From Dioscorea cayenensis subsp. rotundata (lineage: Eukaryota > Streptophyta > Magnoliopsida > Dioscoreales > Dioscoreaceae): DNA of 64,000 nt. The first letter of the stretch is position 1; every line of letters begins with the position of its first letter. Shown here one piece after another: positions 38,101 to 63,991 of the stretch. Where the stretch lies: contig NC_052489.1 in the NCBI RefSeq assembly GCF_009730915.1, forward strand, positions 28,513,916 through 28,577,915, in the 5' to 3' direction. Both the position numbers and the translations under genes were made by a program. The notes under the pieces were generated by a model. That model was given only the letters and a program-made list of their open reading frames with translations. It searched no databases and had not been told where the DNA came from.

Positions 38101-38760
38101 GGGAAAAAAAAAGGAGAAGAGGGTTGCGGGCTAGATCTTCAAGATCCATCAAAGGAAAAGGCTTGGAGGCATTCTAGAGTTTTGGATCTGAGCTTGAGAG
38201 CTCTAAGAAGAAGAAGAGAAGGTACATTTGTGCTCTTTCTTCTTCATTCTTGTAAACCTAAACTAGGGCTTGCAAGATGGTGGGAAGTTAGCCAGGGCAA
38301 GTTGATTTTCTTCTTGTTGTGTGTTTTTCATTGCTCAAGAGAGGCATGTTATTGCTTGTATGCATCAATTTGCCAGATTAAGCTAGTTTGTAGCTTAAGG
38401 GAGAAGAAGAACATTGTAGCTACTTCTCATACAACTTGAATAATCTAGGTCTTTATGGTTTCTCTTTGTAGTCAAGAGTTTTCCCCCAAGGATTCTTCAT
38501 CCTGAAAATTTGTACATTGGTGTTTGAATGAAATTGTGGTGATTTGATTGTCACTGATCCTTGAGAGGTGAATAGTGTTGATTGCCAAGATTTGTCCGTT
38601 GTGTGTTTGAGACCCCGTGCTTCCCAACATGGATATCAACGCACCCAGAAGAGACCTACCAAGCGCCAACAGAAACTACATCAAGCACATCAATGGTTGT
38701 AGATCTAGGAGAACTTAACAGAACTGGTAGTTAGTTCATCTGCTTCAAAACTCATTTTAT
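35160..38760. repeat. Non-coding repeat-like DNA, possibly LTR-retrotransposon derived
   Basis: Long non-coding sequence of higher complexity than the flanking AT-rich DNA. It has several ACTGTAGC-type words (for example near 35780, 36205 and 37925), repeated AAGCACGCCC(A/G)TGCTT phrases (about 35625-35840) and leader-like CT-rich stretches. Similar words open the LTR-like element at 60933. No protease, RT or integrase domain was found here. I infer LTR or UTR parts of a Ty3-type element; without a matching second LTR this is tentative. Confidence 0.3.
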
Positions 38761-39225
38761 ACATCAATCATGGTCGCAAATAGATAGCGCCTTTCATCTT
38801 CTTTATTGCATAATGGCAAAATTTTGGTGTTAATTAAACATTGAAATTACTTAGTTGCTGGTTTTCTCTTATTGAGAACATCGGGGACTATACCATAGAA
38901 AAATAGGTGCTATGCTCTCCCTGCATAAAAAGATAAATTAATCTTCTTTTGACTATCAAAGATCATTTCTGTAAAGACTAGGATCCTTCTTAGTTGAATC
39001 TTTGGTTGTTTATTCCAGCCAAATTGAAAGCCATTCAAAGATTACATCCTTATGAGGCTACTACCATTGAAATTGCTTTGTTCGAGTTTTTCTAATTGCA
39101 AAAATGTAATGATTGGGTTATCATTCTTCAACCGCATTGCTAATTTGTTATGTTTCCTAAGTATAATTAATTTTGTGAATTCCTTAAATAATTCATTTAC
39201 ATTCTCTACAATAAGATAATTAGCT
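38761..39225. other. Spacer upstream of chimera copy A
   Basis: No coding motif recognised. It may contain intron sequence of the captured UBP14-like fragment. Confidence 0.35.
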
Positions 39226-40017
39226 ATGATTATATTAATTCAACATCTTTGTTATATAGCATACAACCTATTGGCTATTGTTAGCCATATAGGTACCTGC
39301 ACTCATTGTGGGCATTATGTCGCTCATGTGTTGAAAGATGGAAGATGGGTGATCTTTAATAACAAAAAAGTGGCAATATCAGTTAATATTTCTAAAGACT
39401 CGAGGTACCTTTACTTCCTGAAATGTGAACCAGCTTGGTTTCCTGATGTTGGTGGTCTCTGGAGAACTCGGAAGTATATTAGAAAGGTATTCTATTAATC
39501 TCTATTCAAAGTCTCATTTCATAAAGATATTATGTTAATGTTGAGATTTCATATAACCAAATTGTTTTTTGATATTTGCTTGTGTGGTAGATAATTAGTG
39601 CATAAGCTGCCTATGAGATCAGGTTTCCAAAGACTAAATATCCTCTTGTGTGGACCTCCAGGTTGTGGGATGACCTTCAAAGCTCATGTTGCCGTTGCTG
39701 CTGCTTCTATGCCGTTTATCTATGTCGGAGGAGCGGAGTTTGTAAAAGAGTGTAATCATGCCCTTGTGAAAGTCGTAAGAAGATTCCTTCTATCTATATT
39801 GATACATATCCTTATCTTAGATTATAGGCAAGTTGAATGTGTTTTTAAATTCATTGACTGTTATCTTTTCATTTCAGGTCCATGTTTTATTTTCCAAGGC
39901 AATTGGCTTAGCACCTTCCATTCTTTTTTTTTTTATGATCTTGATTCTTTTGCCATTCAGGGGGATCTGCCCCAGTTACTAACGACCTTTTTAAACCATT
40001 TGGCTATTGTATATTGA
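39226..40017 (+). pseudogene. Chimeric fragment A: UBP14-like C-terminus joined to an AAA-ATPase segment
   Basis: The open frame at about 39226-39498 encodes AIVSHIGTCTHCGHYVAHVL followed by DGRWVIFNNKKVA. This is the His-box end of a UCH-type ubiquitin protease, most like UBP14 by memory. It runs on into PDVGGLWRTRKYIRKV, the usual entry of an AAA domain. After a probable intron, 39598-39780 encodes HKLPMRSG, ILLCGPPGCGMTF (Walker A with Met for the catalytic Lys) and FIYVGGAEF. The best overall match is PEX1 domain 2, but a CDC48-, NVL- or FtsH-type origin is not excluded. The catalytic Cys region of the protease is absent and Walker A is damaged, so this is a captured or fused gene fragment, not a working enzyme. 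Confidence 0.6.
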
Positions 40018-40169
40018 ATTTAGTGGCAATTTTTGTTCTTTGCTATCATATGATTTGACTGCATTAGAGATAAATTGGATTGGCAAAGATTAAATTAGAT
40101 AAGGAAAAATACTTGTTGTTAACTTTTATATTTCTTGGTTGATTATGTCTTTATTTGCAATTAGGTAGC

Positions 40170-42200
40170 AACATCAAACAATGTTAGCAGGAGTCCAACA
40201 AACCTTGGACAAGGAGGATGATTTCCTAATGGTCGTGGCAGTCCCGCACAAGGCAGTAATGACCCATGACTACATTTCTCGTGATGTGGTGTTTGATGAG
40301 CAAGTGTTTCCTTTTCAAAAGTCCTCTCAAAATGTCCCACACTCTGTTCCCAATCATTCGCACTCCACTGTCCTTCTTCCTCTAGTTACCTCTAAACTTC
40401 CTCATATCGATAAAGATTCAGCAACAACATCTATTCCTCCTAGCCTAGCAAGGGATGAAATTCAGTTAAGTAATTACAATACTAACCCTATGACCAACAA
40501 TGTTCCTTTGTATTCTGAGTCTACAGATGCTCAAGACGGAGCCACTAGTCAACAACATGTTGTTGATCATCAACCAATGAAAACAAGACTACAAAACACA
40601 TTCGAAAGTCAAGGAAGTTCAATGATGCCACTATTCAATATCCGACAAATAGGAGAGCATTCTCAACAGTAGCTGAACCAACTACTCATATTTAAGCTAT
40701 GCAAAATCCTCAATGGAAAAGTGCAATGGATGCAAAGTTTGAAGGACTGCTCAGAAATAGAACCTGGTAGTTGGTACCACCAAGGAGAGGCATGAATATT
40801 ATTGCTTGCAAATGGGTCTTCAAACTCAAAAGGAAAGCATATGGTACTATTGATAGGTACAAAGCACTCCTTGTTGCAAAAGGATTCAAGCAAAGGTATG
40901 AAATTGATTATCTAGACACTTAGTCCTGTAGTTAAGCCTACAACTATCTAGATTATTTTGTCTATTAAAATCTCCAAAGGATGGATACTGAGGCAGATTG
41001 ATATACAAAATGCATTTTTTCATTGTGTGTTGCAAGAAGAAGTCTACATGAGGCAGCCTCTGGGGTATAAGAATGTTAATTTTCCTTCTAATTATGTTTG
41101 CCGTTTGGAAAAGGCCTTGTATGGATTAAAACATGCACCTAAATCATGGCATTCTAGGCTAACCTGTAATATCCAGGAACTCGTGTTCACAATATCCAAG
41201 TCTGACACATATTTGTTCATTTTTAACCAAAATGGAATCACAATATTCATGCTTGTTTATTTTGATGACATAATTATTGTGAGTTCCTCTGCTAGTGCAT
41301 CAGACAAATTGATCTAACAATTGACAAAGATCTTGGACCATTGGAGTATTTTCTAGGCATTGAAGTCAAGTCCACCAAAAATGGTGTTTTGTTGTCGCAA
41401 GGAAAATATATTGTAGACCTCTTAGGAAGAACAAATATGAAGCAATGCAAAGAAATATCTACACCTATGGCAATTGGAGAAAAATTGACCAAGACTGAAG
41501 GAGTACAACTATCGGATACTAACACTTTTCAATACAGGAGAACAGTAGGATCATTGCAATACCTTACCATCCCACGCCCAGATATTTCATTTGCAATGAG
41601 TAAAGTATGCCAATTTTTACAACATCCTACTGATCTCCATTGGGCAGGAATGAAAATAATTCTACGCTACATCAAGGGTATTGATACTAGAGGCTATAGC
41701 TTCAGAAGTCTTCTTCAACAACTCTCAATGATTTCTCAGATGCAGATTGGGCTAGATGTCTAGATGATCGGTGCTCTACATGAGAGTTTGCAATCTTTCT
41801 AGGCTCAAATCTTGTGTCATGGAATTCAAGAAAACAACCTATAGTATCTCATTCAAGCACGGAATTAGAGTACAAAGCAATTGCAAATGCTAAGCAAAGG
41901 TGATATGGATACAATCTTTATTGCGTGAACTTGGTGTTTTTCAGAACAATGCGCCCAAGCTGCAATACGACAATCTTGGAGTAGCCTATTTGACTATCAA
42001 TCCAATCTTCCATGCTAGAACGAAACATATTGAAGTTGATTTTCACTTCGTTTGAGAGCAAGTTGTGCGAAAGGCGATAGAGGTTCATTTTAGTTCCTCA
42101 AAGGATCAACTCGCAGACATGTTTACTAAGGCTCTTCCCAAACCAACATTTCATTCATTTTGCGACAATCTCAATTTAAAGACCCTTCAGTTGTGATTGA
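40170..42200 (+). mobile_element. Degenerate Ty1/copia fragment (integrase end, RT, RNase H)
   Basis: YISRDVVFDEQVFPF marks the integrase-RT linker. RVT_2 motifs follow with several stops (CKWVFKLKR, ALLVAKGFKQRYEIDY, RQIDIQNAFFHCVL, LEKALYGLKHAPKSWH, and YFDDIIIVSS in place of YVDD). Then come LGIEVKSTKNGVLLSQGKYI and the RNase H region ([27 protein letters not shown]) to about 42200. Gag, protease and most of the integrase are missing and no LTR pair is visible. It separates the two halves of chimera A and was probably inserted into it. Confidence 0.85.
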
Positions 42201-42288
42201 GGGTGACTATTAGAAGTATGAGTATGCATCTTCCTTTTAGTTTTTGACCCTTTCATTGTATTCTATTAGAGTGAGTGGCTAGCGTTCA

Positions 42289-42930
42289 GTGTTGTTTCAC
42301 ATAGTGCCACTATTTTCGCTTTGTTTGTTACTGCACATTGTACCACTCCTTGGAATTGAGTTATTTAATGAATTGAGATCCAAGAGATCAATATTACGGC
42401 AAAACAAGCTTCACTTAGTTTTTTTCATAGAGAATTCTTCCAACCGACCAGATCTACTTGATCCACACCTGTCATATGATCACTATTTTCTGAATACTCT
42501 TTTTGTGGATTTTCTAGGTTTGAAAGCAAGATTGGATATTCTAAAAATTCTTTCACGTAAGATAATCATCCTTAAATTTGTATTTTATTTTATGATTTTT
42601 TTTCCATTTTTTTACTTGACGTATCAATTATTGTTGTAAATGGAACAACTACGGTTGGTTGACATTGCTTTCAAGTAGTGGCATTAATGACTGAGGGATT
42701 TAGTGGTAGAGATCTTGAAAGTCTTCTGTCAAATGCAGGGCTTGCTTCTACTACCATCGACTAAGTTTTGAGGGTAAGGCCCTTAGCCTCAAATGCGAGG
42801 CTACTAGTTGTTGAGGACAGAATTTTGAAGGACATTGCTTCAAAGGGGCCCTCGGTGCCAAAAGTTTAGACGGATAAGCTTTGATCAAAGTATGAGGAAT
42901 TTATGCAAGCTAGATCTTAGGTTTAACCAA
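42289..42930 (+). pseudogene. Chimeric fragment A, downstream half: AAA second-region and C-terminus
   Basis: The reading includes RPDLLDPHL (second region of homology), LKARLDILKILSRK, then after a probable intron GFSGRD-like and LESLLSNAG. It ends with ILKDIASKGPSVPK and YEEFMQARS, a plausible AAA C-terminus. Stops and small indels interrupt it. It is collinear with the segments at 46589-47095 and 56958-57421. PEX1 domain 2 is the best match by eye. Confidence 0.55.
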
Positions 42931-43389
42931 TGTCTTACCAACCATTAATTGCTGAGGCAATTTTGGCCAATTTTGAAGGTTTTTTTGTTTTTTCCAAACG
43001 CCATTCTTCAAGTTACTGTGTTTTCTATTCATTGTTTTAACCACAACTCCTGATCTTATTTTCTTTACAAACACCATTCTTAAAAACAAAATCTTTTATC
43101 CTACTTGCTCTCTATCATGTTTTTATTTCTTTTTATTGTTTTTAAGTATGTATTATGATTAATATCATTTACATTTTCCTTAAAACGCGTTATGAGCATG
43201 ATTTTGCTCTTAATCATTATTTATATTTCTCTATACTTTGTTTTACCCATAGTTTAGATTATATTGATTCTTATACTATATGGCTAACAACTATTTATTA
43301 AATTAATTAATTTTTATATCTATTATTTAATACATTGCTTTAATTTTCTATTAACTTCTTGTGTTTAGAGAAAAATCTTGACATCATGG

Positions 43390-43390
<1 letters not shown>

Positions 43391-43434
<44 letters not shown>
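43391..43434. repeat. (TA)n microsatellite at one end of a SINE-like insertion
   Basis: About 22 TA units, the longest such run in the window, abutting the insertion that begins TTGAGAAAGG. It may represent the simple-repeat tail of that insertion. Confidence 0.9.
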
Positions 43435-43436
<2 letters not shown>

Positions 43437-43571
43437 AGAAAGGCGACAAGCACCAGAACCCTAGGGACGTGCATGTGTGGGGAGCAAGGCTTAACGCCAA
43501 CCCACATGCCCTTACCTTGTGTAGGACATAAGGTTCGATCTCGGGTCCTCCCCGAAACGAACATCCTAGGC
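43398..43571 (-). mobile_element. SINE-like insertion with 9-bp flanking repeat
   Basis: The related sequences at 47.77 kb and 58.11 kb run straight through this position, whereas here about 170 bp is inserted. The repeat GGCAAATAT stands on both sides (about 43387-43395 and 43572-43580). Read on the minus strand, the insert ends with TGCACGTCCCTAGGG, a word shared with the 3' half of the SINE at 53.4 kb, followed by a (TA)n tail. A B-box-like GGTTCGATCTC lies on the plus strand, so orientation and class are uncertain. Confidence 0.45.
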
Positions 43572-44447
43572 AAATATTTTATAGAGAAATATTTTTTTAT
43601 TTTTTTAATTATAAATAAAGAGCTTTTACAATTTCTATATTGTTAATTTTTTTTCTTTGTTGAGGTTTGCCCACAAATTTTAAATATATCCAATTTTATC
43701 ATAAATAATGAAGAATTTTAGTAGAATATAAAAAATTTTAGATGACAACTAAAAAGCCAATGAGGTAAATAAGATTTTTACAAATATTTTTTTTAAATTA
43801 TATATATATATATATATTTAAATAGCATATATTTTAGAAAATTAAGTTGCTGAATAATAAATTTTACAAAAAAAAAAATAATTTGTTACTATATAACCAA
43901 TTTATTAAATGTCAAAAGGTTGAACTATAAAATTTTATAATTTTTTTTAAATTGTAATATTTTTTTAGCCTATATATACTAATTTGTAAAAAGCCAACTC
44001 ATCAAACTATAGAGTCTTACAAAAAAAAAGAAATTATATAAATCAGTTTGTAAAATATTAAAGAGCTAAACAATAAAATCTCACAAAGATTTTTACTAAA
44101 AATATTAGTTTTTATATTATATGCATTAATTTGAAATAAATTATATATATATAATTAATTAAAAAACAAAAAACAGGGGGGCTTGACCCCCATTGGTCCA
44201 CTCCTAGCTAGCCCCTACTTATAAGGTATAACCTCCCCATACCTTGTCTGGTAACTCCGCAGAAGGAAATGGGACAAAGATGTAATTAGGTTAAATTATG
44301 ATATTGCCTGAGACAGACAAATAAAATAAAATATTATAAGCTCTAAAAAAATACATTTATGGTGGTCACCCAAATTAATTCCGGCAGTGCCTAAACTAAT
44401 TTTGGTAGTAGGTCCTCAATGTGTGTCGCTAGAGATGGGCATGAACA

Positions 44448-44481
44448 AGGACTGACAAGGGACTGACGGAAAACTGACAGA
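44448..44481 (+). repeat. GGACTGACAAGGGACTGAC array, left side of chimera B
   Basis: Two to three imperfect copies of a GGGACTGACA word. The inverted version stands at 45641-45677, so the two arrays bracket about 1.2 kb containing the AAA/UBP14 fragment, as subterminal repeats of a DNA transposon would. Confidence 0.6.
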
Positions 44482-44524
44482 TTTTGGTGTGGGTGAGATC
44501 GCTCTGTTGAACTAGTCTACGGAG

Positions 44525-45440
44525 AATTCTTCCAATTGACCAGATTTACTTAGATCCGCACATCGTTGTTTTCTAAATACTATTGTTCTAGATTTTCTTG
44601 ATTTGGAAGCAAGACTATATATTCTAAAGATTCTTTCACGGTAGGTAATCATCCATTTTATTTTGTGATTTTTTCCATTCTTTTACTTGATGTAGTAATC
44701 ATTGTTGTGAATTAAATAACTTGGACTTCGATTGGCAGGCATTGATTTTAAGGCAGTGGCGTTAATGACTGAGAGATTTAGTGGCAGAGACTTTGAAAAT
44801 CTTCTATCAAATGCACAAAGCGGTAGTTACTTTGAGAGATGGAAGATTGGTGATCTTCAATATAACAAAGTTGTAGTATTAGTGAATTTGCAATGCACAA
44901 AGCGGTAGTTACTTTGAGAGATGGAAGATTGGTGATCTTCAATATAACAAAGTGGCAGTATTAGTGAATTTGCAAGGAGACTCGGGCTACTTTTACTTTT
45001 TTAAATGTGAACCAGCTTGGTTACCTGATGTTGGTGGTCTATGGACCATTCAGAAATCTATTAGAAAGGTATTATATTAATCTCTAGTTTTAATTCAAAG
45101 TCTCATTTCATAAAGATATTGTGTTAATATCTAGATTTGATATAACCAAGTTGCTTTTTTTTTTCTTTTATATATGTGCTTGTGTTGTAGATAATTAGTT
45201 TGCATAAGCTGCCTAAGAGATCAGTTGTCCTAAAACTAATAATCCTCTTGTTTGAACCTCGTTGTGGGAAGACCTTTATAGTGCATGCTGCCACCATCGC
45301 TGCTTCTATGTCGTATTAACATGCCCCTGCAGAAGCCATAAGATTCCTTCTATCTATATTGATGCATATCCTTATCTTAAATTATAGGCAAATTGAATGG
45401 GTTTTTAAATTCATTGACTATTATCTTTTCATTTCAGGTC
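44525..45440 (+). pseudogene. Chimeric fragment B: AAA second-region, UBP14-like piece and AAA entry/Walker A
   Basis: The order is rearranged compared with copy A: first LEARLYILKILSR-like and FSGRDFENLLSNAQ (end of the AAA domain), then ERWKIGDLQYNKV (frameshifted relic of the UBP14 end seen in copy A), then PAWLPDVGGLWTIQKSIRKV and a ruined Walker A (FEPRCGKTF). An 82-bp tandem duplication (44811-44892 and 44893-44974) and several frame breaks disrupt it. It cannot encode a functional ATPase. Confidence 0.6.
44811..44974 (+). repeat. 82-bp direct tandem duplication inside chimera B
   Basis: The unit beginning ATGCACAAAGCGGTAG occurs twice head to tail with two mismatches. The corresponding site in unit 2 (near 55259) has it once, so it arose after the segmental duplication or was lost there. 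Confidence 0.85.
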
Positions 45441-45640
45441 CATGCTTTATTTTACAAGGTAAAATTTTTGTTCTTTGCTATCATATTATTTGGTTGCATG
45501 AGAGTTAAATTGGATTAGCAAAGATTAAATTAGATAAAAAAATAGACTCATTGTTAACTTTTATATTTCTTGGTTTATTATGTCTTTTTTGCAGTTAGCA
45601 ATAAAGCTTTACTATTAAAAAACAAGGGATCCCACATCTC

Positions 45641-45677
45641 GTCGGAATCTGTCAGTCCCTTGTTAGTCCTCTGTCGG
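45641..45677 (-). repeat. GGACTGACA array, right side of chimera B (inverted)
   Basis: It reads CTGTCAGTCCCTTGTTAGTCC on the plus strand, the reverse complement of the array at 44448-44481. Together they form terminal or subterminal inverted repeats. Confidence 0.6.
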
Positions 45678-46146
45678 TAAAATGTGTTTAGTTGTCACCC
45701 ACCCTAATGATTTTTGAGAATTATCTCATATGTGGAAATTTGTGGATCAATGGTAACAAACTTGCGAACATATAATGGATCAATGAAAAAAATAATTTTT
45801 TTGCCAATGTTAAGTAAAAGAACGAAAAATCACAAAAATAAAATGAAAATTTGAGTATGATAATAAAACCTTATATGACAGCACCCTTGAAATATATAAT
45901 CTAGCTTCCCAATTAGGAAAATCAACAACAACATAAAAACAAGTAGATCTGGTATGCTAGAATATTATGCATGATAAAGATAGTTAAATTCATAACTTTA
46001 CATAAAATTAAAAAATTAATCTAACATATTTGTTTAATTCAAATAGTAATCAAAACTAACACTTTACTAAAATACTAATAGAAAAATAGCATAGACCAGA
46101 ACCCTATCCGACCCATCAAAATAGTCAAGCACCATTATTAACTGCA

Positions 46147-46196
46147 GGGGACTGACAGGGGACTGATATGGGATTGACGGGGGACTGACAAATTCC
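46147..46196 (+). repeat. Third GGGGACTGACA array in unit 1
   Basis: Three or four imperfect copies of GGGGACTGA(C/T) in the same orientation as the left array. It precedes the second AAA fragment by about 400 bp. Confidence 0.6.
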
Positions 46197-46588
46197 GGTT
46201 AAAGGTGAATTGCTCCGTTGAGATCATCAAAGAAGTGGAGGGAGGGTTATGAGAGATGAAACTCGACAATGATCGGGAGGGAGATTGGGATGATATCTAG
46301 GGTGGAAATTTAAATGATGAATTAGGGTATACTATTTTTTGGATCACAGTTCTTAGTTGGATCCGAAGAATTCTTTACAAATTTTTTTTAACATTTTTTA
46401 ATATTTTATATTGATTAAAGTATTCTAAAATGGCAAGTCATAAGATCATAGCATGTTAATATTAAAAAAAATCTAGACGGTTATAAACGGCAAACATGAC
46501 TACCGTTTTCCTTATTGATGGGCATATTTTTAAGAATAAATGGATTTGAAAGGCATAAAAAAAAGTAGATGTACTACAAAGTTACATT

Positions 46589-47095
46589 TTGAAAAATAAA
46601 GGGACTGTATGGAGAATTTTTCCAACCTACCTGATCTACCTGCACCTGTCACATCATTGTTGTTTTCTAAATGCTCTTTTCCTGGATTTTCTTGATTTAG
46701 AAGCTAGATTGGATATTCTAAAGATTCTTTCACAGAAGGTAACCACTTTTATATTTCTATTTTATTTTGTGATTTTTTGCATTCTTTTACTTGAAGTATC
46801 AATCATTGATGTAAATGGAACAGCTTCGGTTGGCTGGCATTGATTTTCAGGCAGTGGCATCAAGGGATTTGGTGGCAGAGACCTTGAAAGTCTTCTATCA
46901 AATGCACGGCTTGCTTCTATTACCATCGGCGAGTTTTGAGGGCAAGGCCCTCAACCTCAAATGCTGAGGCTTCTGGTTGTTGATGACAGAATTTTGAGGG
47001 ACATTGCTTTAGAGGGGCTCTCAGTGCCAAAAGTTGAAAGGGATATGCTTAGATCGAAGTATGAGGAATTTATGCAAGCTAGATTTCAGGTTTAG
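46589..47095 (+). pseudogene. AAA fragment, second-region plus C-terminus (unit 1)
   Basis: Reads LEARLDILKILSQK, then after a probable intron GRDLESLLSNARLAS-like with a frame break, DRILRDIALEGLSVPKVER and YEEFMQARFQV before a stop. It is collinear with the downstream half of chimera A and with 56958-57421. It lacks the Walker A half, which lies rearranged upstream in chimera B. Confidence 0.5.
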
Positions 47096-47099
47096 CCGG

Positions 47100-48130
47100 T
47101 GTCCAGCCAACCATTAATTGTTGAGGCAGTTCTGGCCAATTTTGATGGTCTTATGTGTTTTCTTTCCAAACGTCATTCTTAAAGTCACTATGTTTTCCAT
47201 TCATTGTTTTTAAGTATAATTCCTTAAACAGTCCCCTCTACTTTTCCAACTTTACTTTGAACTATAACCTTTTAGCTCATTTACAATTTTAATTTAACTA
47301 TGTTAGTCCCTCTAAACCCTAAACCATCAAAAGGACTGGCTGACATGGGACTAAAAGGTTATAATTTAAAACGTGAGACTGAAAAAGTAAGTTTAAAAAA
47401 TGTTAGAGAATTATACTTTATTTTTAACGAAAACTCTGGTATTGATTTCTTTCCAAACACCATTCTTAAAAACAAAATATTTTATCCTACTTGCTCTCTA
47501 TCAAGTTTTTATTTTTTTTAGTGTTTTTGGGTATGTATTATGATTAATATCGTTTACATTTTCCTTAAATACATTATGAGCTTGATTTTGCTCTTAATCA
47601 TTATTTATATATCTCAATACTTTTGTTTTACTGGTAGTTTAGATTATATTGATTCTCATACTATATGGCTAACAACTATTTATTAAATTAATTATTTTTT
47701 ATTTCCATTATTTAATACGTTGCTTTAATTTTCTATTAAATTCATGTGTATAGAGAAAAATATTGGCATCATGGCAAGTATTTTATGGAGAAATATCTTT
47801 AATTTTTTTTAATTATAAATAAAGAGCTTTTGCAATTTCTATATTGTTACATTTTTTTCTTCATTGAGATTTGCTCACAAATTTTAAATATATCCAATTT
47901 TATCATAAATAATTAAGAATTTTAGTAGAATATAAAATGATAAACAAATATCTTAAATAGGTCTTTAAAAAAATAAAATTTAAGTAAAAATTAATTTTTG
48001 TTAAATAAATTAGAGGTTATATTCCTAAAATTCTGCTTTAGGCCTATACTTAATTAGCCAGAGCTGCACCAGGGACAAAATTGTTTTATATTTCCCTGAT
48101 GCACTCCATCAGGAGAAGAGAATAACCGAA
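47100..48130. other. AT-rich DNA between the AAA fragment and the PPR gene (unit 1)
   Basis: No gene recognised. The stretch is repeated in unit 2 (about 57425-58490), and its left part is also related to 42930-43735. It presumably holds the 3' UTR of the minus-strand PPR gene at its right end. Confidence 0.45.
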
Positions 48131-51104
48131 TTAATTGTCAACAATAAGAGCAACTCCCGGTTCTTTCTTCAATCCCTTCATTTCCATATCATATCTCACT
48201 GTTTTTGAATCATTCCACCTTCCATCCACTGCATAGATGTTTGAAAGCATCACATATGAATTAGAGCTACAACTCTTCAACTCAAGAAGCAATTTACCAA
48301 TTGCTTCTCCAATTTCAACATTTCCATGGCTCCTACAAGCTCCAAGTAGTGACTCTAACAAACTGGAACAGGGCTTAAACGGAAGCCTCCTAATAAGATC
48401 ATATGCCTCGTCTAAGTATCCCGTCCGGCCGAGGAGGTCTACCATACATGCATAATGCTCCATCCGTGGTTTTATCCAGTGATCCTCTATCATTGACTTG
48501 AATATAACTCTTGCTTCCTTGACCAAGCCTGAATGACTGCAAGCTGATAATATGCTAATGATAGTAACATCATCAGGTTTCAGTCCAGCTTCCTGCATCT
48601 TGGAGAAGAGATTGAGAGCGGCAAGACCATCGCCATGGATCCCGAATGCATTAATTATCACACTCCATGTGATAGTGTCTTTGTTGTGTGTAGTGTTGAA
48701 TAACTCTTTTGCAATAGCTATGCTCCCGCATTTGGCATACATATCAATTAGAGCATTGATTACAGAGATGTTTTTATCGAATCCTTTGCGGATTATGAAA
48801 CTTGTGATGCACTGAGCCAGCTCTAGACTCCCCACAACAGAACAGGCGGAAACTAAGATCAAAATGGTTACTGAATCGGGTTGCATTCCTAACGTAAGCA
48901 ATTCTTTGAAGCAAGTAACAGAGTTTGCTATGTGTCTGCTTTGGAGATAAACTGACATCTTTGTGTTCCAAGAAATAATATTTCTCTTATCCAGCTGTTC
49001 GAAAAGTAGACAGCAATAATCTAAGTTCTCGAATCTAGCATACATGCACATGGCTGATGTGAGAAGAGAAGACTCCATGATTGAAAAATTTCTAAGAGCA
49101 AATGCATGGATTGACTTGCCTTGTTGGTGAAAGATGCATATGGGCAATAAATTTAATAAGGTTACTGAGTTAGGTTTCTGACCTCCCATCTTCATCTGAT
49201 CAAACAGAACCATTACCTCCTCGAATAAGTTACAGTCACGGTATCCCGTCATCAGAGCATTCCAAGATACAACACTTTTCATCTCTAAACTGTTTGAAAA
49301 GTAGCTGACCAGCTTGCATGTTACCACAATTAGCATACATACTTATAAGTGCATTAGTAAGCTGGGTATCGGAGGAGTAACCACTTTTGATAACCAAAGC
49401 ATGAAAAGGCATCCCTGTGGTTATCTCGTCGACCTGGTTAAAGCCAGAGATGATGCTGATCAGGGTGATCAGATCAAATTTCACACCTTCTTGACCCATC
49501 TGATGAAAGAAAGCCATGGAACCTTCAGTGTCTCCTATCTTACCCAAGCCTGAAATCAAAACATTCCAAGATATTACATTTCTTGCCTTCATCTTGTGAA
49601 ACAAATTGAGAGAAGCATCGAGCCGATGACAAGCAGAGTACATAGATAATAGCCCATTAATCACATTCACATCTGAATCGAAACCATTTCTAATGATGTA
49701 AGCATGGGTGGAATCACCAGACCTCAAGTCCTGAGATATGCTACACGCAGAGATAACACTGATCATTGAGATTGCATCTGGCATAACACCTCTAGCTATC
49801 ATGTCGATGAAAATGTCCAAGCTTTTGTGCCATAGCCCATCCAGAAGGTAGCCAGAGATCATGGAGTTCCATAATAGAAGGCTCTTTTCTGACACCGAAT
49901 TGAAAAGATATCGAGCTGCATCTAGCTCCCCAAGCTTAGCATACATTGACACAAGAGCAGATACCACACCGTCATTATACGTCAGACCAAATTTAATCCC
50001 AATAGCATGCACTGACTCACCATAGCAAGCATTTGCAAGATTACAGCAAGACGGAAGAACAGACACCAATGTGACCAAATTAGGCTTCGTATCAGAACGG
50101 TGCATGAGTTGGAAAACTCCACAGGCTTCACCTGGTTCACCAACTTTAGCATATGCAGATATCATGGCATTCCAAGCAACTACGTGTTTTTCAAGCATCA
50201 TTTCAAACAACTTCCTCGCAGAATTCAAGTCACTGAAACAACCATACATTGAGATCAAAGTAGGCGTCATAACTTCATCATCCAAGACCCCACATTTGAT
50301 AGCAAAACCATGCAAAGATCTACCAGAACTTAATTCTCCTACTATCATGCAAACAGGTAACACACTTACCAAAGTGCTCGCACTCGGCATCAAACCAACA
50401 GCCAACATCTCCCGGAAAGCTTCAAATGCCTCTGGGCAATACCCATTCGTCAAATAACCGCAAACTAAAGCATTCCAAGAGACTAAGTCTCTTTGAGACA
50501 TTTGATCGAATACCTTCTCCGCATATTCCATAGAACCCGTCTTAGCATACATATCCAGAAGAGAAGTCTGAACAACCGAATGACCACCATACCCAGTTTT
50601 AAGCACAACACAATGAACTTCTTTTCCCAACCTTTGAGTACCAAGAGCTGCACAAGACTTGATCACAAAGGGAAACGTGTAATTATCCGACTGAAAATTA
50701 CATCTCCGCCACCACGCATACAAGTTAAGAACATGATCATAAAAGCCATGATCCGAGAGGCTGCGGACAGTGTAGTTCAGCAGCAACAAGGTGGGTGCAG
50801 CGGTTGTTCTATAAAGGGAAAGCACAAGCTCTGGGAGGCCAAAAGATGCATACTTTACAATGGTTTCTTTGAGAAAGAAGGTGCTTTGGATGAATCCAGT
50901 AACAATGAGAAGGGAATGGAGCTTGTTGAGAGAAGATATGGAGTTGGAGTGAGGGTGCAAGGAAGTAGTGAGGAAGTTGGTGAGGTTTTGAATGGTGGGA
51001 AGGTGGTGAGCGGAGGAGGTTGTGAAGAAAGTGTAGTTTTTTTGCAGGAGATGAAGAACAGTGGAAGGGAGGAAAGATTTGTGAAGGCCATGAAGAACGT
51101 TCAT
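48131..51104 (-). CDS. PLS-class pentatricopeptide repeat protein, E subgroup (one frameshift)
   Basis: Single-exon minus-strand gene starting at 51104 with a Ser/Thr/Leu-rich organelle-targeting-like N-terminus (MNVLHGLHKSFLPSTVLHLL). Tandem P, L and S type PPR motifs follow, for example SLLDMYAKTGSMEYAEKVFD, DLVSWNALVCGY and ALIDMYAKCGSIAIAKELF. The C-terminus is an E domain (HYACMVDLLGRTGYLDEAYD, SYVMLSNIYAVDGRWNDS) without a DYW deaminase. Such proteins bind organelle RNA one base per repeat and usually specify C-to-U editing sites, recruiting a deaminase in trans. The frame breaks at about 49286-49289 (TTTAGAG where TTTGAG fits), splitting the gene into 622-residue and about 385-residue parts. 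The same extra base occurs in the duplicate at 59.9 kb, so it is probably a true old mutation. Full length would be about 990 residues. Confidence 0.85.
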
Positions 51105-53428
51105 TTCTTTGGCGGGAGTGAATTGAAGAAGGCTTTTGCTGTATTTTTCATGGTTGCATGGAAGTTAGTTTAAAGTCACAACAATTATACCCTTTATTTT
51201 ATATAAGGTGTGTCTAAACATTATATTATGCCCATATTGGGTTTTAAAGGGTAAAGAAATTATTTTATTAAAAAGGGAGATATACGTAACAGACTTGATA
51301 AATGAATGATAAGTCATAAGTCATCGTTTAATTAAGAATAAGAGAAATATCATGTACCATCTACATTTTTAAAAGGTATTTTTTTCATTTTAGTAAATAT
51401 TTCTTTACATGAGATTTTTTAAATAATAGAAAATTTAAACATAAGAAAATTATCAAATATGATGTGTATTTTATGATAAATTAATGATGAGATTGAATTT
51501 AGTTCATAAACTAAAATAGATTAATATGAATTTTGATGCATATTTTAGGAAAAAATAAAAATAATAGTATACTAAAAAATTATAATGTTAAGAATTTTTT
51601 ATAATATTTTTTTATATATTTTATAAATTATTAATTTTTATTTTTAGTGGCCTTAAATAGTTGAGATCAGGAAAAATTATTATTATTTAATGAGTTTTTT
51701 ATTGTATTGTATGTGTTTCCAAAATACATTAAAAAAAACCCCGATATGCAATTTTCCCTCTCGAGCTGGCCTTGCATGAATTTATATGCATGCGAATCCT
51801 GTTTCTATGTTGTCATATAAGTAGATGCAAGCCCGCTCATGCATGATGCGTGCAAATAAACTATTTAACATCTTAATGTATTATTTTAAATTTTTGAAGA
51901 ATATTCCAGATTTAATATTTTATTAAATAAATATGTTTATAATAAAATGTAAATAGTTAACTATAATTGGGTCCTACATTATATTAAAACTATGAGTGTT
52001 GTTATATGTATGTTCTAAATTTACCAAATATGTTTTCTCCCAGAGCAAATTTGCACTACCAAAGCAAATCTACCATAAATAACATAGGAAGAAATAATAT
52101 CCAAAAATAAAAGTATTGTGAATTTTAATCTCAGATACATTAGTGAGTCTATAAAAAACAAATGTCATCAGGAATACTACAATTCATTCTTCTATGTACA
52201 AATTTGGGAAATAAATTAAGACAAAGTTGATAAAGAAAGATGATGAATCACAGAACAAAAGAGGAATATGTTCTGTACTTTTAACTGCATACTTTCATGA
52301 GTTTCATCACACCTTTTTCTTTTATCAATTTTCAGCTTTTATAATTAAATAGGCTTAAAGCGTAAGCATTACTAAGTAGAGAACAGCCTAACTATGTCAA
52401 ATGCCAACATTTTTGTATAGGAAGAGAACTATACTAGGCTAGCCAAACTGATCAATCTTCTATGTAGAAAGTCAAATCTTGATGCAGCCATTCAAGATAT
52501 ATATGTTTCCAACCATCTAAATAGATTGTTCACTAGCAATGCTTTCCAATTTTGTATTGGGCCAGAAATGATGAATCAAGTAGCCAGAGAGAATTGAATC
52601 CAGCTTTTCATATTTAGTTACAAAAAATCATTTGCACCAGCAAATTCTCATTTAAGAAGAAACGGTTATATCTTAAAGAAGGCTAAGTCACAAATCAAAA
52701 CAGAAAAGAAGTTATATTGAGGCCATTAATGACTAACACTCTACCAACCAGACGTACTGCAGGTGGATAGGGGAAGCATATATAGCACATAACAATATTA
52801 TGCGGCTATGTAAGCCAATTACAATGTAGCAGGAAAGAGAGTAAAATTTTAATCCCCTTGACAAACACTGAAACACTCATTTGTTAACTTTAATCCAGAC
52901 CTATCTATGGAACTAATTGACTACTAAACTTGGCATCACTAACCCTATGAATTCATTTGCAACACAAATAATAATACGAATTCATGTCCAACACTGCATA
53001 CCTATTACCCTGAATTTATGCTGTTAAAACATTTCACATTGAAATGCATTAAATAAATAAACTCCCCCGCATAAGTGGCCCAACTATAGTTTGAATGTGC
53101 AATCCTTAGCATGTCACTTAAAAAGAAATTCAAGGATGTTGGAGACATGATATTCAATTTGTCCAATGACCCACACATAACAAGCCAACCATCTAATCCT
53201 CCACTTCATTTATTTTAGTTAAAAAAATAAATTTGATATATGCACCATTAATAACTTATGTCGAATTATAATTTTTTTTTTTTACTTCATAACAAAAAAA
53301 AGTGCAAAATGATATCATAAAAAGCACAAACCGGTTTTAAAAAGCATAATTGCCACTAGTACTTCAATGACAAAACTAGTAACTCAAATGGCTTCCTGGA
53401 GGTTCCCAATAATAAAAATAAAATTAAT
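51105..53428. other. Upstream region of the PPR gene and AT-rich spacer
   Basis: The first few hundred bases are the presumed PPR promoter. No further gene was recognised. This stretch has no counterpart visible in unit 2. Confidence 0.45.
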
Positions 53429-53697
53429 AATAATAAAATACATGCTCCAACTGACTTTTTGGACTCATTTGGTGACACGGGTCGCCGATAAAGCTCTCAC
53501 CGAGTGGTGAGAGTTTAATTCTAGATTGTGGGCACATTTTTTGGAGTTGTGAATAGTGGTTGTGTATGGGTGGTTCAAAGACTCCACGTGAGTAGCCCGC
53601 ATCTTCATTTATTCCACCGAGGCTTGTGCACGTCCCTGGGCCTTTAGGGATTCTCCCCGCTCTTTTTTCCAAAAAAAAAAATAATAAAATACATGCT
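53429..53697 (+). mobile_element. SINE with poly(A) tail and 18-bp target-site duplication
   Basis: An approximately 233-bp insert (53447-53679) ends in a 10-nt A run and is flanked by perfect 18-bp direct repeats, AATAATAAAATACATGCT, at 53429-53446 and 53680-53697. The head contains a tRNA-like GAGTTTAATTCTAG (B-box-like) at about 53510. The tail half carries GTGCACGTCCCTGGG, also found in the element at 43.4 kb. The duplication and A tail make a retroposed insertion secure; the SINE family is not identified. Confidence 0.75.
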
Positions 53698-53873
53698 GCT
53701 TCCAAATCATCAGTAATAATAGTTCCAAGTTTTACGGCCAAAGGATAATTTCTCCTTGTAATGTTCAACTGCATGATTATTATCGCTCGTTCCATTCTCC
53801 TTATTTCTCCCACATAAGACTAGTCCGTCAGTTAAATTATGCCAGAGATTATCAAACTCATCACATATGCAGC

Positions 53874-54036
53874 ATTTCCATCCTTATGGGGGGTATAATG
53901 ACACCACTGTTCATCTGTTGCAAATCTAAGGTATAGGCGCTGGTTTTCTTTTTTGCGACGGTACAAGCAGCTACTTGGTCTTTGCATTCAGCACCCTCAG
54001 CAAGTAAGACGGAATCAACAGCTAATCTCATCTGCT
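53874..54036 (-). other. Unassigned exon-like open segment
   Basis: On the minus strand a pyrimidine-rich acceptor (about 54037-54045) precedes an open frame beginning MRLAVDSVLLAEGAE and continuing KDQVAACTVAKKK for about 50 codons. Residue composition is protein-like but I recognise no family, and no partner exon was found. It could be a relic exon or chance. Confidence 0.2.
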
Positions 54037-54561
54037 AAGTACAAATAGGAGTATGAATGTTGGAAAAGTTTCCCAGAAGGTACTTATAAGTAGGGGGCAT
54101 AGGCAGAAATATTTTTTAAAGAGGGCCAAAATTTTTTAAAAGGAGCTAAAAAAATTTTTAGATGACAACTAAAAAGCCAATGAGATAAATAAGATTTTTA
54201 CAAATATTTTTTTAAAAAATATATATATATATATTTTTAAATAGCATATATTTTAGAAAATTAAGTTGCCAGATAATAAATTTTACAAAAAATAATAATA
54301 ATTTGTTACTATATAACCAATTTATTAAATGTCAAAAAGTTGAACTATAAAATTTTATAATATTTTTTAAACTGTAATATTTTTAGCCTATATATACTAA
54401 TTTGTAAAAAAAAAGTCAACTCATCAAACTATAGAGTCTTACAAAAAAAGAAATTATATAAATCAGTTTGTAAAATATTAAATAGCTAAACAATAAAATC
54501 TCATAAAGATTTTCACTAAAAATATTAGTTTTTATATTATATGCATTAATTTGATATAAAT

Positions 54562-54583
54562 TATATATATATATATATATATT
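54562..54583. repeat. (TA)n microsatellite
   Basis: TA run in unit 2, longer than its counterpart near 44144 in unit 1. Confidence 0.85.
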
Positions 54584-54870
54584 ATTAAAAAAACAAAAAA
54601 CAGGGGGGCTTGACCCCCATTCGTCCACTCCTAGCTAGCCCCTGCTTATAAGGTATGACCTCCCCATACCTTGTCTGGTAACTCCGCAGAAGGAAATGGG
54701 ACAAAGATGTAATTAGGTTAAATTATGATATTGCTTGAGACAGTCAAATAAAACAAAATATTATAAACTCTAAAAAAATACATTTATGGTGGTCACCCAA
54801 ATTAATTCCGGCAGTGCCTAAACTAATTTTGGTAGTAGGTCCTCAATGTGTGTCGGTAGAGATGGGCATG

Positions 54871-54919
54871 AACAGGGACTGACAAGGGACTAACAAGGGA
54901 CTGACAGGAAATTGACAGA
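54871..54919 (+). repeat. GGGACTGACA array, left side of chimera C
   Basis: Three to four imperfect copies of GGGACT(G/A)ACA followed by GAAATTGACAG. It has one more copy than the unit 1 array at 44448, which suggests repeat-number turnover. Confidence 0.6.
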
Positions 54920-54957
54920 TTTCGGTGAGGGTGAGATCGCTCTGTTGAAGTAGTCTA

Positions 54958-55850
54958 CGGAGAATTCTTCCGGTTGACCAGATTTACTTAGATCCGCAAA
55001 CGTTGTTTTCTAAATACTGTTGTTCTAGATTTTCTTGATTTGGAAGCAAGACTATATATTCTAAAGATTCTTTCACGGTAGGTAATCATCCTTATATTTG
55101 CATTTTATTTTGTGATTTTTTCCATTCTTTTACTTGACGTAGTAATCATTGTTGTGAATTAAATAGCTTGGACTTCGATTGGCAGGCATTGATTTTAAGG
55201 CAGTGGCGTCAATGACTGAGAGATTTAGTGGTAGAGACCTTGAAAGTCTTCTATCAAATGCACAAAGCGGTAGTTACTTTGAGAGATGGAAGATTGGTGA
55301 TCTTCAATATAACAAAGTGGCAGTATTAGTGAATTTGCAAGGAGACTCGGGCTACCTTTACTTTTTTAAATGTGAATCAGCTTGGTTACCTGATGTTGGT
55401 GGTCTATGGACCATTCGGAAGTCTATTAGAAAGGTATTATATTAATCTTTAGTTTTAATTCAAAGTCTCATTTCATAAAGATATTGTGTTAATATCTAGA
55501 TTTGATATAACCAAGTTGCCTTTTTTTTTTTTTTCTTTTATATATATGCTTGTGTTGTAGATAATTAGTTTGCATAAGCTGCCTATGAGATCAGTTGTCC
55601 TAAAACTAATAATCCTTTGTGTGAACCTCGTTGTGGGAAGACCTTTATAGTGCATGCTGCCACCATCGCTGCTTCTATGTCATGTTAACATGCCCCTGCA
55701 GAAGCCGTAATATTCCTTCTATCTATATTGATGCATATCCTTATCTTAGATTATAGGCAAATTGAATGTGTTTTTAAATTCATTGACTATTATCTTTTCA
55801 TTTCAGGTCAATGCTTTATTTTCCAAGGTGAAATTTTTGTTCTTTGCTAT
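54958..55850 (+). pseudogene. Chimeric fragment C: AAA second-region, UBP14-like piece and AAA entry/Walker A
   Basis: The arrangement is as in chimera B but without the 82-bp tandem repeat. A continuous frame at 55179-55445 reads FKAVASMTERFSGRDLESLL, then ERWKIGDLQYNKVAVL (relic of the UBP14 end), then WLPDVGGLWTIRKSIRKV. The next block (about 55570-55690) contains HKLPMRS and the degraded Walker A (CGKTF). A fused short peptide could be translated, but no functional domain is complete. Confidence 0.6.
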
Positions 55851-56020
55851 CATATTATTTGGTTGCATGAGAGTTAAATTGGATTAGCAAAGATTAAATT
55901 AGATAAAGAAATAGACTCATCGTTAACTTTTATATTTCTTGGTTTATTATGTCTTTTTTGCAGTTAGCAATAAAGCTTCACTATTAAAAAAACAAGGGAT
56001 CCCACATCTCGTCGGAATCT

Positions 56021-56047
56021 GTCAGTCCCTTGTCAGTCCTCTGTCGG
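56021..56047 (-). repeat. GGACTGACA array, right side of chimera C (inverted)
   Basis: It reads CTGTCAGTCCCTTGTCAGTCC on the plus strand, inverted relative to the array at 54871-54919. The pair brackets about 1.18 kb. Confidence 0.6.
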
Positions 56048-56500
56048 TAAAATATGTTTGGTTGTCACCCACCCTAATGATTTTTGAGAATTATCTCATA
56101 TATGGAAATTTGTGGATCAATGCAAACATATAATGGATCAATGAAAAATAATTTTTTTGCCAATGTTAAGTAAAAGAACGAAAAATCACAAAAATAAAAT
56201 GAAAATTTGAGGATGATAATAAAACCTTATATGACAGCACCCTTGAAATATATAATCTTGTTTCCCAATTAGGAGAATCAACAATAAAAAAAAACAAGTA
56301 GATCTGGTATGCTGGAATATTATGCATGATAAAGATAGTTAAATTCATAACTTTACATAAAACTAAAAAATTAATCTAACATATTTGTTTAATTCAAATA
56401 GTAATCAAAACTAACACTTTATAAAATACTGATAGAAAAATAACATAGACCATCACCCTATCCGGACCCATCAAAATAGTCAAGCACCATTATTAACTGC

Positions 56501-56547
56501 AGGGACTGACAGGGGACTGATAGGGCATTGACGGGGGACTGACAAAT
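56501..56547 (+). repeat. Third GGGGACTGACA array in unit 2
   Basis: Imperfect copies of GGGGACTGA in the same orientation as the left array; counterpart of 46147-46196. Confidence 0.6.
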
Positions 56548-56957
56548 TCTTGCTCCATTGAGATCATCAAAGAAGTGGAGGGAGGGTTATGAGAGATGAA
56601 ACTCGACATTGATCGGGAGGGAGATTGGGATGATAACTAGGGTGGAAATGAAAATGATGAATTAGGGTATACTATTTTTTGGATCACAGTTCTTAGTTGG
56701 ATCCGAAAATTCTTTACAAATTTTTTGTAACATTTTTTAATATTTTATATTGATTAAAGTATTCTAAAATGGCAAGTCATAAGATCATATGCATGTTAAT
56801 ATTAAAAAAATCTAGCATGCTCGACGGTTATAAACGGCAAACATGACGACCGTTTTCCTTATAGATTGATGGGCATATTTTTAAGAATAAATGGATTTGA
56901 AAGGCATAAAAAAAAGTAGATGTACTAGAAAGTTACATTTTGAAAAATAAAGGGACT

Positions 56958-57421
56958 GTATGGAGAATTTTTCCAACCTACCTGATCTGCACCAGTCACA
57001 TCATTGTTGTTTTCTAAATGCTCTTTTCCTGGATTTTCTTGATTTGGAAGCAAGACTGGATATTCTAAAGATTCTGAAGGTAATCACTTTTATATTTCTA
57101 TTTTATTTTGTGATTTTTTGCATTCTTTTACTTGAAGTATCAATCATTGTTGTAAATGGAACAGCTTCGGTTGGCTGGTATTGATTTTCAGGCAGTGGCA
57201 TCAATGGATGAGGGATTTGGTGGCAGAGACCTTGAAAGTCTTCTATCAAATGCACGGCTTGCTTCTACCACCATCGGCGAAGTTTTGAGGGCAAGGCCCT
57301 CAACCTCAAATGCCTTATTGATGACAGAATTTTGAGGGATATTGCTTTAAAGGGCCTTTTAGTGCCAAAAGTTGAAAGGGATGAAGTACGAGGAATTTAT
57401 GCAAGCTAGATTTCAGGTTTA
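56958..57421 (+). pseudogene. AAA fragment, second-region plus C-terminus (unit 2)
   Basis: Reads LEARLDILKIL, then FQAVASMDEGFGGRDLESLL with NARLASTTIGEVLRARPST, then DRILRDIAL-like and YEEFMQARFQV. Compared with unit 1 it keeps the GFGGRD block in frame for longer but has lost short pieces near 57070 and 57315. Confidence 0.5.
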
Positions 57422-57424
57422 GCC

Positions 57425-58490
57425 GGTGTCCAGCCAACCCAACCATTAATTGTTGAGGCAGTTCTGGCCAATTTTGATGGTCTTATGTGTTTTCTTTCCA
57501 AATGTCATTCTTAAAGTCACTATGTTTTCCATTCATTATTTTTAGGTATAATTCCTTAAACAGTCCCTCTATTTTTCCAAACTTACCTTTTAGTCACTTT
57601 ACTTTGAACTATAACCTTTTAGCTCATTCACAATTTTAATTTAACCATATTAGTCCCTCTAAACCCTAAACCATCAAAAGGAATGACTGACATGGGACTA
57701 AAAGGTTATAAGTTAAAACGAGAGACTGAAAAGTAAGTTTAAAAAATTTTAGAGAATTATACTTTGTTTTTAACGAAAACTCTGGTATTGATTTCTTTCC
57801 AAACATTATTCTTAAAAACAAAATATTTTATCCTACTTGCTCTCTATCATGTTTTTATTTCTTTTTAGTGTTTTTGGGTATGTATTATGATTAATATCGT
57901 TTACATTTTCCTTAAATACATTATGAGTGTGATTTTGCTCTTAATCATTATTTATATATCTCAATACTTTTGTTTTACCGGTAGTTTAGATTATATTGAT
58001 TCTCATACTATATGGCTAACAACTATTTATTAAATTAATTAATTTTTATTCCCATTATTTAATACGTTGATTTAATTTTCTATTAAATTCATGTGTATAG
58101 AAAAAAATCTTGGCATCATGGCAAATATTTTATGGAGAAATATCTTCAATTTTTTTAATTATAAATATAGAGCTTTTGCAATTTCTATATTGTTACATTT
58201 TTTTCTTTATTGAGATTTGCTCACAAATTTTAAATATATCCAATTTTATCATAAATAATTAAGAATTTTAGTAGAATATAAAATGATAAACAAGTATCTT
58301 AAATAGGTCTTTAAAAAAATAAAATTTAAGTAAAAATTAATTTTTGTTAAATAAATTAGAGGTTATATTCCTAAAATTCTGCTTTAGGCCTATACTTAAT
58401 TAGCCAGAGTTGCACTAGGGACAAAATTATTTTATATTTCCCTGATGAACTCCATCAGGAGAAGAGAATAACCGAATTAATTGTCAACAA
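57425..58490. other. AT-rich DNA between the AAA fragment and the PPR pseudogene (unit 2)
   Basis: Counterpart of 47100-48120 in unit 1 with scattered substitutions and small indels. No gene recognised. Confidence 0.45.
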
Positions 58491-58493
58491 TAA

Positions 58494-58754
58494 GGGCTTG
58501 TTTGGATTAGCTTATAAAAAAAGTGCTTTTTTTGCCTTTTGTAGAAGCACTTTTGGGAAAAGTACTTTTGAGTAAGTTAAGTGCTTATAAAAAAAGCTGG
58601 TCTTTTGTAGCTTATAAAAAAAGCTGTTTTTGGGCTTATTTTACAGCTTCAGCTTATCCAAAAAAGCTAATCCAAACACCAATAAACCATCATAAGCACT
58701 TAACTTATGAAATAAGTGCTTTTGGATCAGCTATAAGCTGATCCAAACAAGCCC
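58494..58754. mobile_element. 261-bp Tourist-like MITE with TAA target duplication
   Basis: It begins GGGCTTGTTTGGATTAGCTTA and ends with the inverted form (TAAGCTGATCCAAACAAGCCC). TAA stands at 58491-58493 and again at 58755-58757. Unit 1 carries the uninterrupted site (CAACAATAAGAGCAAC), which proves insertion and gives exact borders. A 3-bp TAA duplication is typical of PIF/Harbinger-derived MITEs. The interior is built of repeated GCTTATAAAAAAAGCT-like words and has no coding capacity. Confidence 0.9.
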
Positions 58755-58757
58755 TAA

Positions 58758-63759: not shown

Positions 63760-63991
63760 GCTTGTTAGGGTTGACTCGACCCGGTCAAATCCGAGGCCTT
63801 GCACCCGGTGGGGCCCAACCACGTTGGATGCGGCCCGATCGTCGGCGAGCCGGCTTTGGGGGCTGGGCGTGGCGGATCATCACGTCCAGCCCCTGGCAGG
63901 GCCCCGGGACGGATCGGCCGCATCGATGCGGTGGGCCTCAGCCCGGGTGCAAGGCCTCGGTCTTGACTCGGTCGAGTCGACCCTAACAAGC
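63760..63991. repeat. 232-bp GC-rich inverted repeat, TGTTAGGG...CCCTAACA
   Basis: The arms GCTTGTTAGGGTTGACTCGA and TCGAGTCGACCCTAACAAGC are inverted, and pairing continues through CCGAGGCCTTGCACCCGG / CCGGGTGCAAGGCCTCGG. The GC content is far above that of the surrounding DNA. It may be a nested foldback element or a structured part of the LTR-like element. Confidence 0.75.

Follow-up and report, generated by a model that had tools for sequence, protein, structure and literature searches.

Decayed UBP14 and PEX1 pieces, joined and locally copied, in a probable pseudogene cluster of Dioscorea cayenensis subsp. rotundata

The window analyzed here, a stretch of 64,000 nucleotides of Dioscorea cayenensis subsp. 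rotundata (contig NC_052489.1), holds a cluster on one chromosome that is made up of decayed pieces of two plant genes, those for a ubiquitin-cutting enzyme (UBP14) and a peroxisome protein (PEX1), joined to each other and locally copied. Its best reading, to which we assign a probability of about 0.75, is that of a pseudogene cluster whose pieces have been shuffled locally through inversion, duplication in tandem and the insertion of retrotransposons, and not that of a new fusion gene; most likely, no working protein is to be expected from it. The joined UBP14/AAA pieces that an earlier note had described from the letters alone are largely real.

Provenance of the UBP14 half

The His-box piece, read in that note as UBP14-like, is firmly so: it matches the UCH domain (PF00443, E 5.6e-9) and, over 53 aa, USP5 (3ihp, E 9.1e-15; next best E 2.4e-4). 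It also extends further than the note's author saw, to 38630-39435 with an intron. The UBP14 pieces are:

38630..39435, plus strand: 3' end, comprising a stretch of the penultimate exon, an intron and the last exon, which bears the His box; by identity to the C6 gene; copy A
44218..44305, minus strand: bit of the 5' end in copy B
44810..45017, plus strand: last-exon remnant of copy B, with an 84-base near-exact tandem repeat
52042..54732, minus strand: 5' half of a UBP14 paralogue, decayed, its zf-UBP exon frameshifted
55279..55382, plus strand: last-exon remnant of copy C

A parent-type UBP14 gene is present on C6, where 610 of the 776 aligned bases of the 3' piece (79%), intron included, are identical to C6:14657450-14656659; the next match of the last exon outside the window has E 0.0024 (all 24 candidates scored). 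The 5' relic matches the same gene at 82-83% of aligned bases (with gaps counted, 74 and 82% for its two main blocks), with 53369-53675 and 54090-54642 not aligning. Because this decayed 5' half lies in the same window, the UBP14 piece of the chimera probably stems, by inversion, from the end of a pseudogene resident here. Against this count the missing 7.9-kb middle of UBP14, which was searched for and not found, and the inversion breakpoint, none being pinned down. The cluster likewise gave no match to the Cys-box region at the thresholds applied, and no single frame carries Cys box and His box as in a working UBP14, the 3' end and the 5' half lying on opposite strands.

These opposite strands would also suit an origin of the two pieces in separate duplications, only one of which was joined to PEX1. 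The distances from the C6 gene are unequal (K80 0.255 for the 3' relic vs 0.194-0.202 for the 5' relic), and hence the relics might be two duplicates. However, both match the one C6 gene in non-overlapping parts and lie just 12.6 kb apart in the window, and we consider separate duplications unlikely.

Provenance of the PEX1 half

The AAA pieces are distributed over copies A, B and C as follows:

39425..40164, plus strand: S_A, PEX1 D2 entry, Walker A exon and broken Walker B exon, with introns
42427..43038, plus strand: E1, PEX1 D2 end and C-terminus, broken
44518..44816, plus strand: E2, orphan PEX1 end preceding copy B
45018..45598, plus strand: S_B, PEX1 entry and broken Walker A
45810..46001, minus strand: inverted PEX1 exon with flanking intron, in B
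46608..47210, plus strand: E3, PEX1 D2 end and C-terminus of B
54959..55262, plus strand: E4, orphan PEX1 end preceding copy C
55383..55967, plus strand: S_C, PEX1 entry and broken Walker A
56127..56356, minus strand: inverted PEX1 exon of C
56959..57542, plus strand: E5, PEX1 D2 end and C-terminus of C

In domain searches, the Walker ORF of copy A matches AAA (PF00004, E 1.2e-4), and 55167-55442 matches AAA_lid_3 at E 3.8e-6, slightly below the cut-off (26.8 vs 27.2 bits); among the other seven AAA pieces, 44720-44905 reaches AAA_lid_3 at 7.8e-5, below the cut-off, and six give no match. The joined reading of the copy A entry matches a VCP-like ATPase at 7.3e-19 among PDB sequences, a comparison in which PEX1 could not be distinguished from other AAA proteins. 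The search of the plant's own genome did distinguish it: outside the window, the AAA-end reading clearly matches only one gene, C19:27498861 (E 3.1e-7), plus its near-copy on C617 (4.0e-7); every further AAA gene is at E 0.076 or worse. Upstream of this match, an exon on the same strand bears PEX-1N (PF09262). Together these bear out the PEX1 source proposed earlier and place a PEX1 gene on C19, 1.05 Mb from the cluster.

By sequence, then, UBP14/USP5 deubiquitinases and PEX1 peroxins are the source of the two halves; unlike either, the chimera retains no more than a His-box end plus a remnant reaching from D2 to the C-terminus, and at the thresholds applied neither PEX-1N nor D1 turned up in the cluster. 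No copy has the intact Walker A of a working PEX1 or AAA ATPase. In A the motif reads GPPGCGMT, with the lysine changed to methionine, while in B and C it reads EPRCGKT, the lysine retained and the first part of the motif lost. Copy A further carries a 2-base deletion, a frameshift and stops, and B and C carry deletions and stops; no copy has an unbroken AAA part. The pieces being pseudogenes with parent genes located elsewhere in the genome, a single normal gene with misread exons is ruled out.

A common junction and its local copies

In copy A, as the note had it, an in-frame ORF (39220-39498) runs from the UBP14 His box directly into the AAA entry. B (ORF 44886-45080) and C (ORF 55167-55445) likewise have an open junction, and its identity across the three points to a single joining event. 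The order earlier given for B and C, namely AAA end, UBP14 remnant, AAA entry and second AAA end, also stands; the UBP14 5' half and the inverted PEX1 exon are additions to what the note described. Related pieces are indeed present in A, B and C, but these are not three equivalent copies: B and C together form a single tandem duplication (43727-51296 / 54147-60932 and further, a PPR gene included; B-C K80 0.035-0.040), and A is an older relative (A-B K80 0.10-0.13). The shared surroundings are:

43026..43733, plus strand: downstream flank common to A, B and C (not continuous)
48131..51296, minus strand: PPR gene belonging to the duplicated unit, in two frames that overlap
58755..60932, minus strand: PPR copy of C, interrupted, running on beyond the window

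Introns are retained in both halves (UBP14, 396 of 500 bases identical to the C6 gene; PEX1, 73% over 126 columns), which indicates copying at the DNA level and leads us to reject a retrocopy. Likewise, the similar identities of UBP14 exons and intron to the C6 gene (0.798, 0.792, 0.765) argue for genomic copying. With introns retained, coding frames disrupted and parent genes elsewhere, the locus has all the marks of non-processed pseudogenes, and it resembles known clusters of these in its local copies and nearby transposable element insertions; it differs from the usual ones in that two unrelated parent genes are joined in frame near a stop codon.

We infer the following order of events. 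A second UBP14 gene would formerly have stood at this locus and then decayed, its 5' half being left at 52042-54732 on the minus strand. The gene's 3' end would have been inverted and, close to the stop codon, linked to a PEX1 copy that had already decayed, itself a DNA-level copy of the D2-to-C-terminus region. Tandem duplication of the joined unit would have given A and B, and a further duplication of the B region with its PPR neighbor would have given C, after which retrotransposon insertions and deletions may have cut the pieces further. If this model is true, inversion, tandem duplication and retrotransposon insertion can yield an in-frame chimera without capture machinery. Clusters of this sort are open to mis-annotation as fusion genes or captured-gene transposons, and have little import beyond annotation.

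Retroelements and transposon capture

Two retroelements adjoin or interrupt copy A:

37900..38629, plus strand: dispersed LTR, its end adjoining the UBP14 piece; start near 37889 (by eye)
40165..42428, plus strand: 5'-truncated copia retroelement with 3' LTR, splitting copy A (RVT_2 1e-24)

With 40 of 91 candidates scored, the LTR query has at least 44 non-self matches; of these, 26 stop at query base 730, which is window position 38629, and 13 others stop at most 10 bases after. The left border of copy A is thus the end of a dispersed LTR. For the copia element, the query's first 180 bases, 42251-42429, have matches at four C4 sites, in two pairs 4.3-4.5 kb apart.

Capture of UBP14 and PEX1 fragments by a Pack-type or other gene-carrying DNA transposon, at least in B and C, would accommodate the retained introns. 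The locus resembles Pack-MULE, Pack-CACTA and Helitron gene capture (reviewed in PMC13317346) in that genomic pieces from more than one host gene lie next to each other and that B and C are partly surrounded by short inverted repeats. In B, E2, the UBP14 remnant and S_B stand between the arms of 44451-44483/45646-45678 (33 nt, 73%; core 23 nt, 91%). Two pairs in C, 54893-54929/56008-56044 (37 nt, 76%) and 54878-54907/56019-56048 (30 nt, 87%), bracket E4, the UBP14 remnant and S_C in the same way. A further pair, 45643-45678/46162-46197 (36 nt, 75%), lies around the inverted PEX1 exon, and 46149-46610 is similar to a low-copy repeat. Helitrons have 5' TC and 3' CTRR ends with a hairpin.

These repeats are weak and leave some room for a transposon. 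However, for copy A, with the same junction, none of this kind is seen in the longest 25 inverted-repeat pairs (of 51). The genome-wide search for more copies found no dispersed chimera with copy A's two modules, nor dispersed copies of its S or E module, and matches of the PEX1 part of 45600-46610 are confined to the window and PEX1 itself (all counts being lower bounds). This lack of dispersed copies, the LTR border of A and the UBP14 half in the same window set the locus apart from such capture, and we regard capture as distinctly improbable. Thus, of the two mechanisms offered earlier, repeated ectopic recombination holds and Pack-type capture is unsupported.

Selection on the two halves

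A once functional UBP14-PEX1 gene, duplicated and then dead, would fit the in-frame junction of A, B and C and the UBP14 last exon, which looks constrained (52 codons, Ka 0.14, Ks 1.19, ratio 0.12) and counts against local pseudogene shuffling; its Ks is far above the intron K80 (0.25) and the penultimate-exon Ks (0.31, ratio 0.68). The PEX1 half tells against such a gene: its ratio is 0.49 over 130 codons (Ks 0.98, Ka 0.48) and 0.64 over 99 codons in copy A alone, the pattern of a neutral copy against a constrained parent. Its ratio (0.49-0.64) and its Ka (0.48-0.50 vs 0.14-0.21 in the UBP14 half) suggest that it was probably already decaying at joining. Single PEX1 exons vary (0.43, 0.49, 0.93), which also counts against our preferred reading, and the last one (E4 or E5) is saturated at synonymous sites and yields no ratio. 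Moreover, A-B exons are less conserved than introns (63/330 vs 31/328 sites differing, p 5e-4; the B-C contrast, 13/331 vs 6/352, is not significant, p 0.10), and own-genome searches found no intact copy. We therefore deem a formerly functional gene very unlikely; it is scarcely probable either that the junction once encoded a working deubiquitinase-end/PEX1-D2 chimera duplicated before its death or that copy A still yields a short transcript.

Related observations

In a search for a wider paralogous block between C6 and C19 (30 kb vs 144 kb, one row per place), only UBP14 is prominent; one other chain (E 2e-17) is repeat-like in appearance and the remainder are short. The scattered short tblastx rows of the block and relic comparisons were judged noise by eye. 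At 35315-35370, a 56-base match to UBP14 (75%, E 6e-5 to 2e-5), in the right order and orientation, may be a further UBP14 relic left of the LTR, or chance.

Architecture of the UBP14/PEX1 cluster

The UBP14/PEX1 cluster is real and curious, and it is most likely an ordinary rearranged pseudogene cluster; in the best reading, the in-frame joining of its halves is a coincidence. Its neighbor genes are of the PPR, lipin, MATE and malectin-like types, a set that suggests a land plant. Its three copies (A, B and C) are built of module S (the UBP14 end, the PEX1 AAA entry and Walker A) and module E (the PEX1 AAA end), both delimited by self-comparison of the window (C19:28513916-28577915):

39331-40164, module S of copy A
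44914-45598, module S of copy B
55279-55967, module S of copy C
42427, 44518, 46608, 54959 and 56959, starts of module E (E1-E5)
40165-42428, copia element truncated at its 5' end and retaining the 3' LTR, inside copy A
45810-46001, inverted PEX1 exon of copy B
56127-56356, inverted PEX1 exon of copy C
52042-54732, minus strand, UBP14 5' half in pieces, matching C6:14665306-14667244
44218-44305, second occurrence of a UBP14 5'-end bit, in copy B

Parent genes

The ORF at 39220-39498 matches UCH (E 5.6e-9) and USP5 (E 9.1e-15), and in its own genome (584 Mb in 2249 contigs searched) it finds one UBP14 gene on contig C6 (E 3.5e-24, 71% over 58 aa), the second-best non-window match being at E 0.0024. 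The exons of that gene carry zf-UBP, UBA and UCH domains, and its alignment covers 806 window bases spanning the penultimate exon, the intron and the last exon, with exon and intron identity alike.

Outside the window, the AAA-end reading clearly matches just one gene, C19:27498861 (E 3.1e-7) with a near-copy on contig C617 (E 4.0e-7), followed by a match at 0.076; the two contigs are 98-99% alike at this gene. The C19 gene has a typical second AAA domain, and an upstream same-strand exon (L029) carries PEX-1N (PF09262, E 4e-10), from whose order and strand we infer one PEX1 gene. A PEX1 intron stretch also aligns to the window (73%). The C617 copy (L032) lacks several small indels of one C19 exon (3521-3800 of the C19 stretch L028); these are therefore local assembly or polishing errors in this assembly, and frameshifts elsewhere call for care.

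Joining and duplication

UBP14 and PEX1 meet near 39425, where the UBP14 reading frame ends, and the recurrence of that junction in B and C points to a single joining event. Near 44815 in B and 55262 in C, an orphan PEX1 end (E2 and E4, respectively) adjoins the UBP14 remnant, an arrangement expected either at the seam of a tandem array or after a deletion. In self-comparison, one tandem duplication takes in B, C and the PPR gene (43727-50308 versus 54147-60932). Its K80 is 0.035-0.040, as against 0.101 (module S introns) and 0.133 (module E with flank) between A and B; copy A is older than the B-C duplication.

The window also holds the UBP14 5' half, with 82-83% of aligned bases identical to C6 (71 to 82% with gaps counted) and its zf-UBP exon broken by frameshifts. 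The UBP14 3' end in copy A lies 12.6 kb away on the opposite strand; the 7.9-kb UBP14 middle was looked for and not found. Because the 5' half, the 3' end and the 5'-end bit in B share the window, the UBP14 material would most simply be a resident paralog, broken and partly inverted, making capture from C6 unnecessary.

Evidence for and against transposon capture

The earlier note had proposed a fusion amplified and shuffled by Pack-type transposons or repeated ectopic recombination. Capture is favored by inverted repeats: in B a pair of 33 nt (73%), with a 23-nt core at 91%, surrounds E2, the UBP14 remnant and module S, in C pairs of 37 nt (76%) and 30 nt (87%) surround E4 and the equivalent pieces, and a 36-nt pair (75%) flanks the inverted PEX1 exon. 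Among the longest 25 of 51 pairs, none surrounds copy A, which has the same junction, so capture would have involved at most B and C, after the joining.

Genome-search match counts are lower bounds. Module S of copy A gave at least seven matches, six in the window and one the UBP14 parent; module E gave at least 11, seven in the window and four on contig C4 that cover the copia LTR part only. No dispersed chimera appears among the matches listed for these two queries. With 45600-46610 there were at least 11 (three window, two PEX1 and six elsewhere), all six of the last falling in 46149-46610. At its left border, 38630, copy A abuts a dispersed LTR that ends there: of the 44 listed non-self LTR matches, 26 stop at window base 38629.

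Decay of the two halves

In every copy the AAA part appears to be dead. Copy A carries stops and a 2-base deletion, has methionine in place of the Walker lysine and is frameshifted in its Walker B exon; B and C have more deletions, Walker A cut down to EPRCGKT, and stops. Against its parent the PEX1 half has a Ka/Ks of 0.49 (130 codons, the last exon taken from E5 and saturated by itself), and the PEX1 part of copy A alone 0.64 (99 codons; exons 0.43, 0.49 and 0.93). The UBP14 last exon (Ka/Ks 0.12, 52 codons) points against a dead relic; we rest no conclusion on it because its Ks of 1.19 is out of line with the intron K80 (0.25) and the penultimate exon (0.31), and the codons are few. Since Ka is higher in the PEX1 half (0.48-0.50) than in the UBP14 half (0.14-0.21), decay of the PEX1 copy probably long predates its joining to UBP14.

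Between the dead copies A and B (39331-40156 versus 44914-45590), exons diverge about twice as much as introns (63/330 versus 31/328 sites, p 5e-4), perhaps through methylated-cytosine decay in the G+C-richer exons; for B and C the counts are 13/331 versus 6/352 (p 0.10).

Other features of the window

An 84-base unit in B (44810-44975), repeated head-to-tail at 97.6% and absent from C in self-comparison, would be either very recent or an assembly error. A MITE-like insert (58493-58755) with 24-base terminal inverted repeats (96%; AGGGCTTGTTTGG...) lies at the end of the second PPR copy. The sequence of that PPR copy picks up again outside the window, past a 3.6-kb insert (60933-64000 plus 1-525 of the continuation L031) that has inverted repeats close to its right-hand end. 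A run of exactly 1000 N at 3485-4484 is an assembly gap or masked stretch, and 26916-29100 holds a reverse transcriptase relic (RVT_1, E 5e-23), probably of the non-LTR type.
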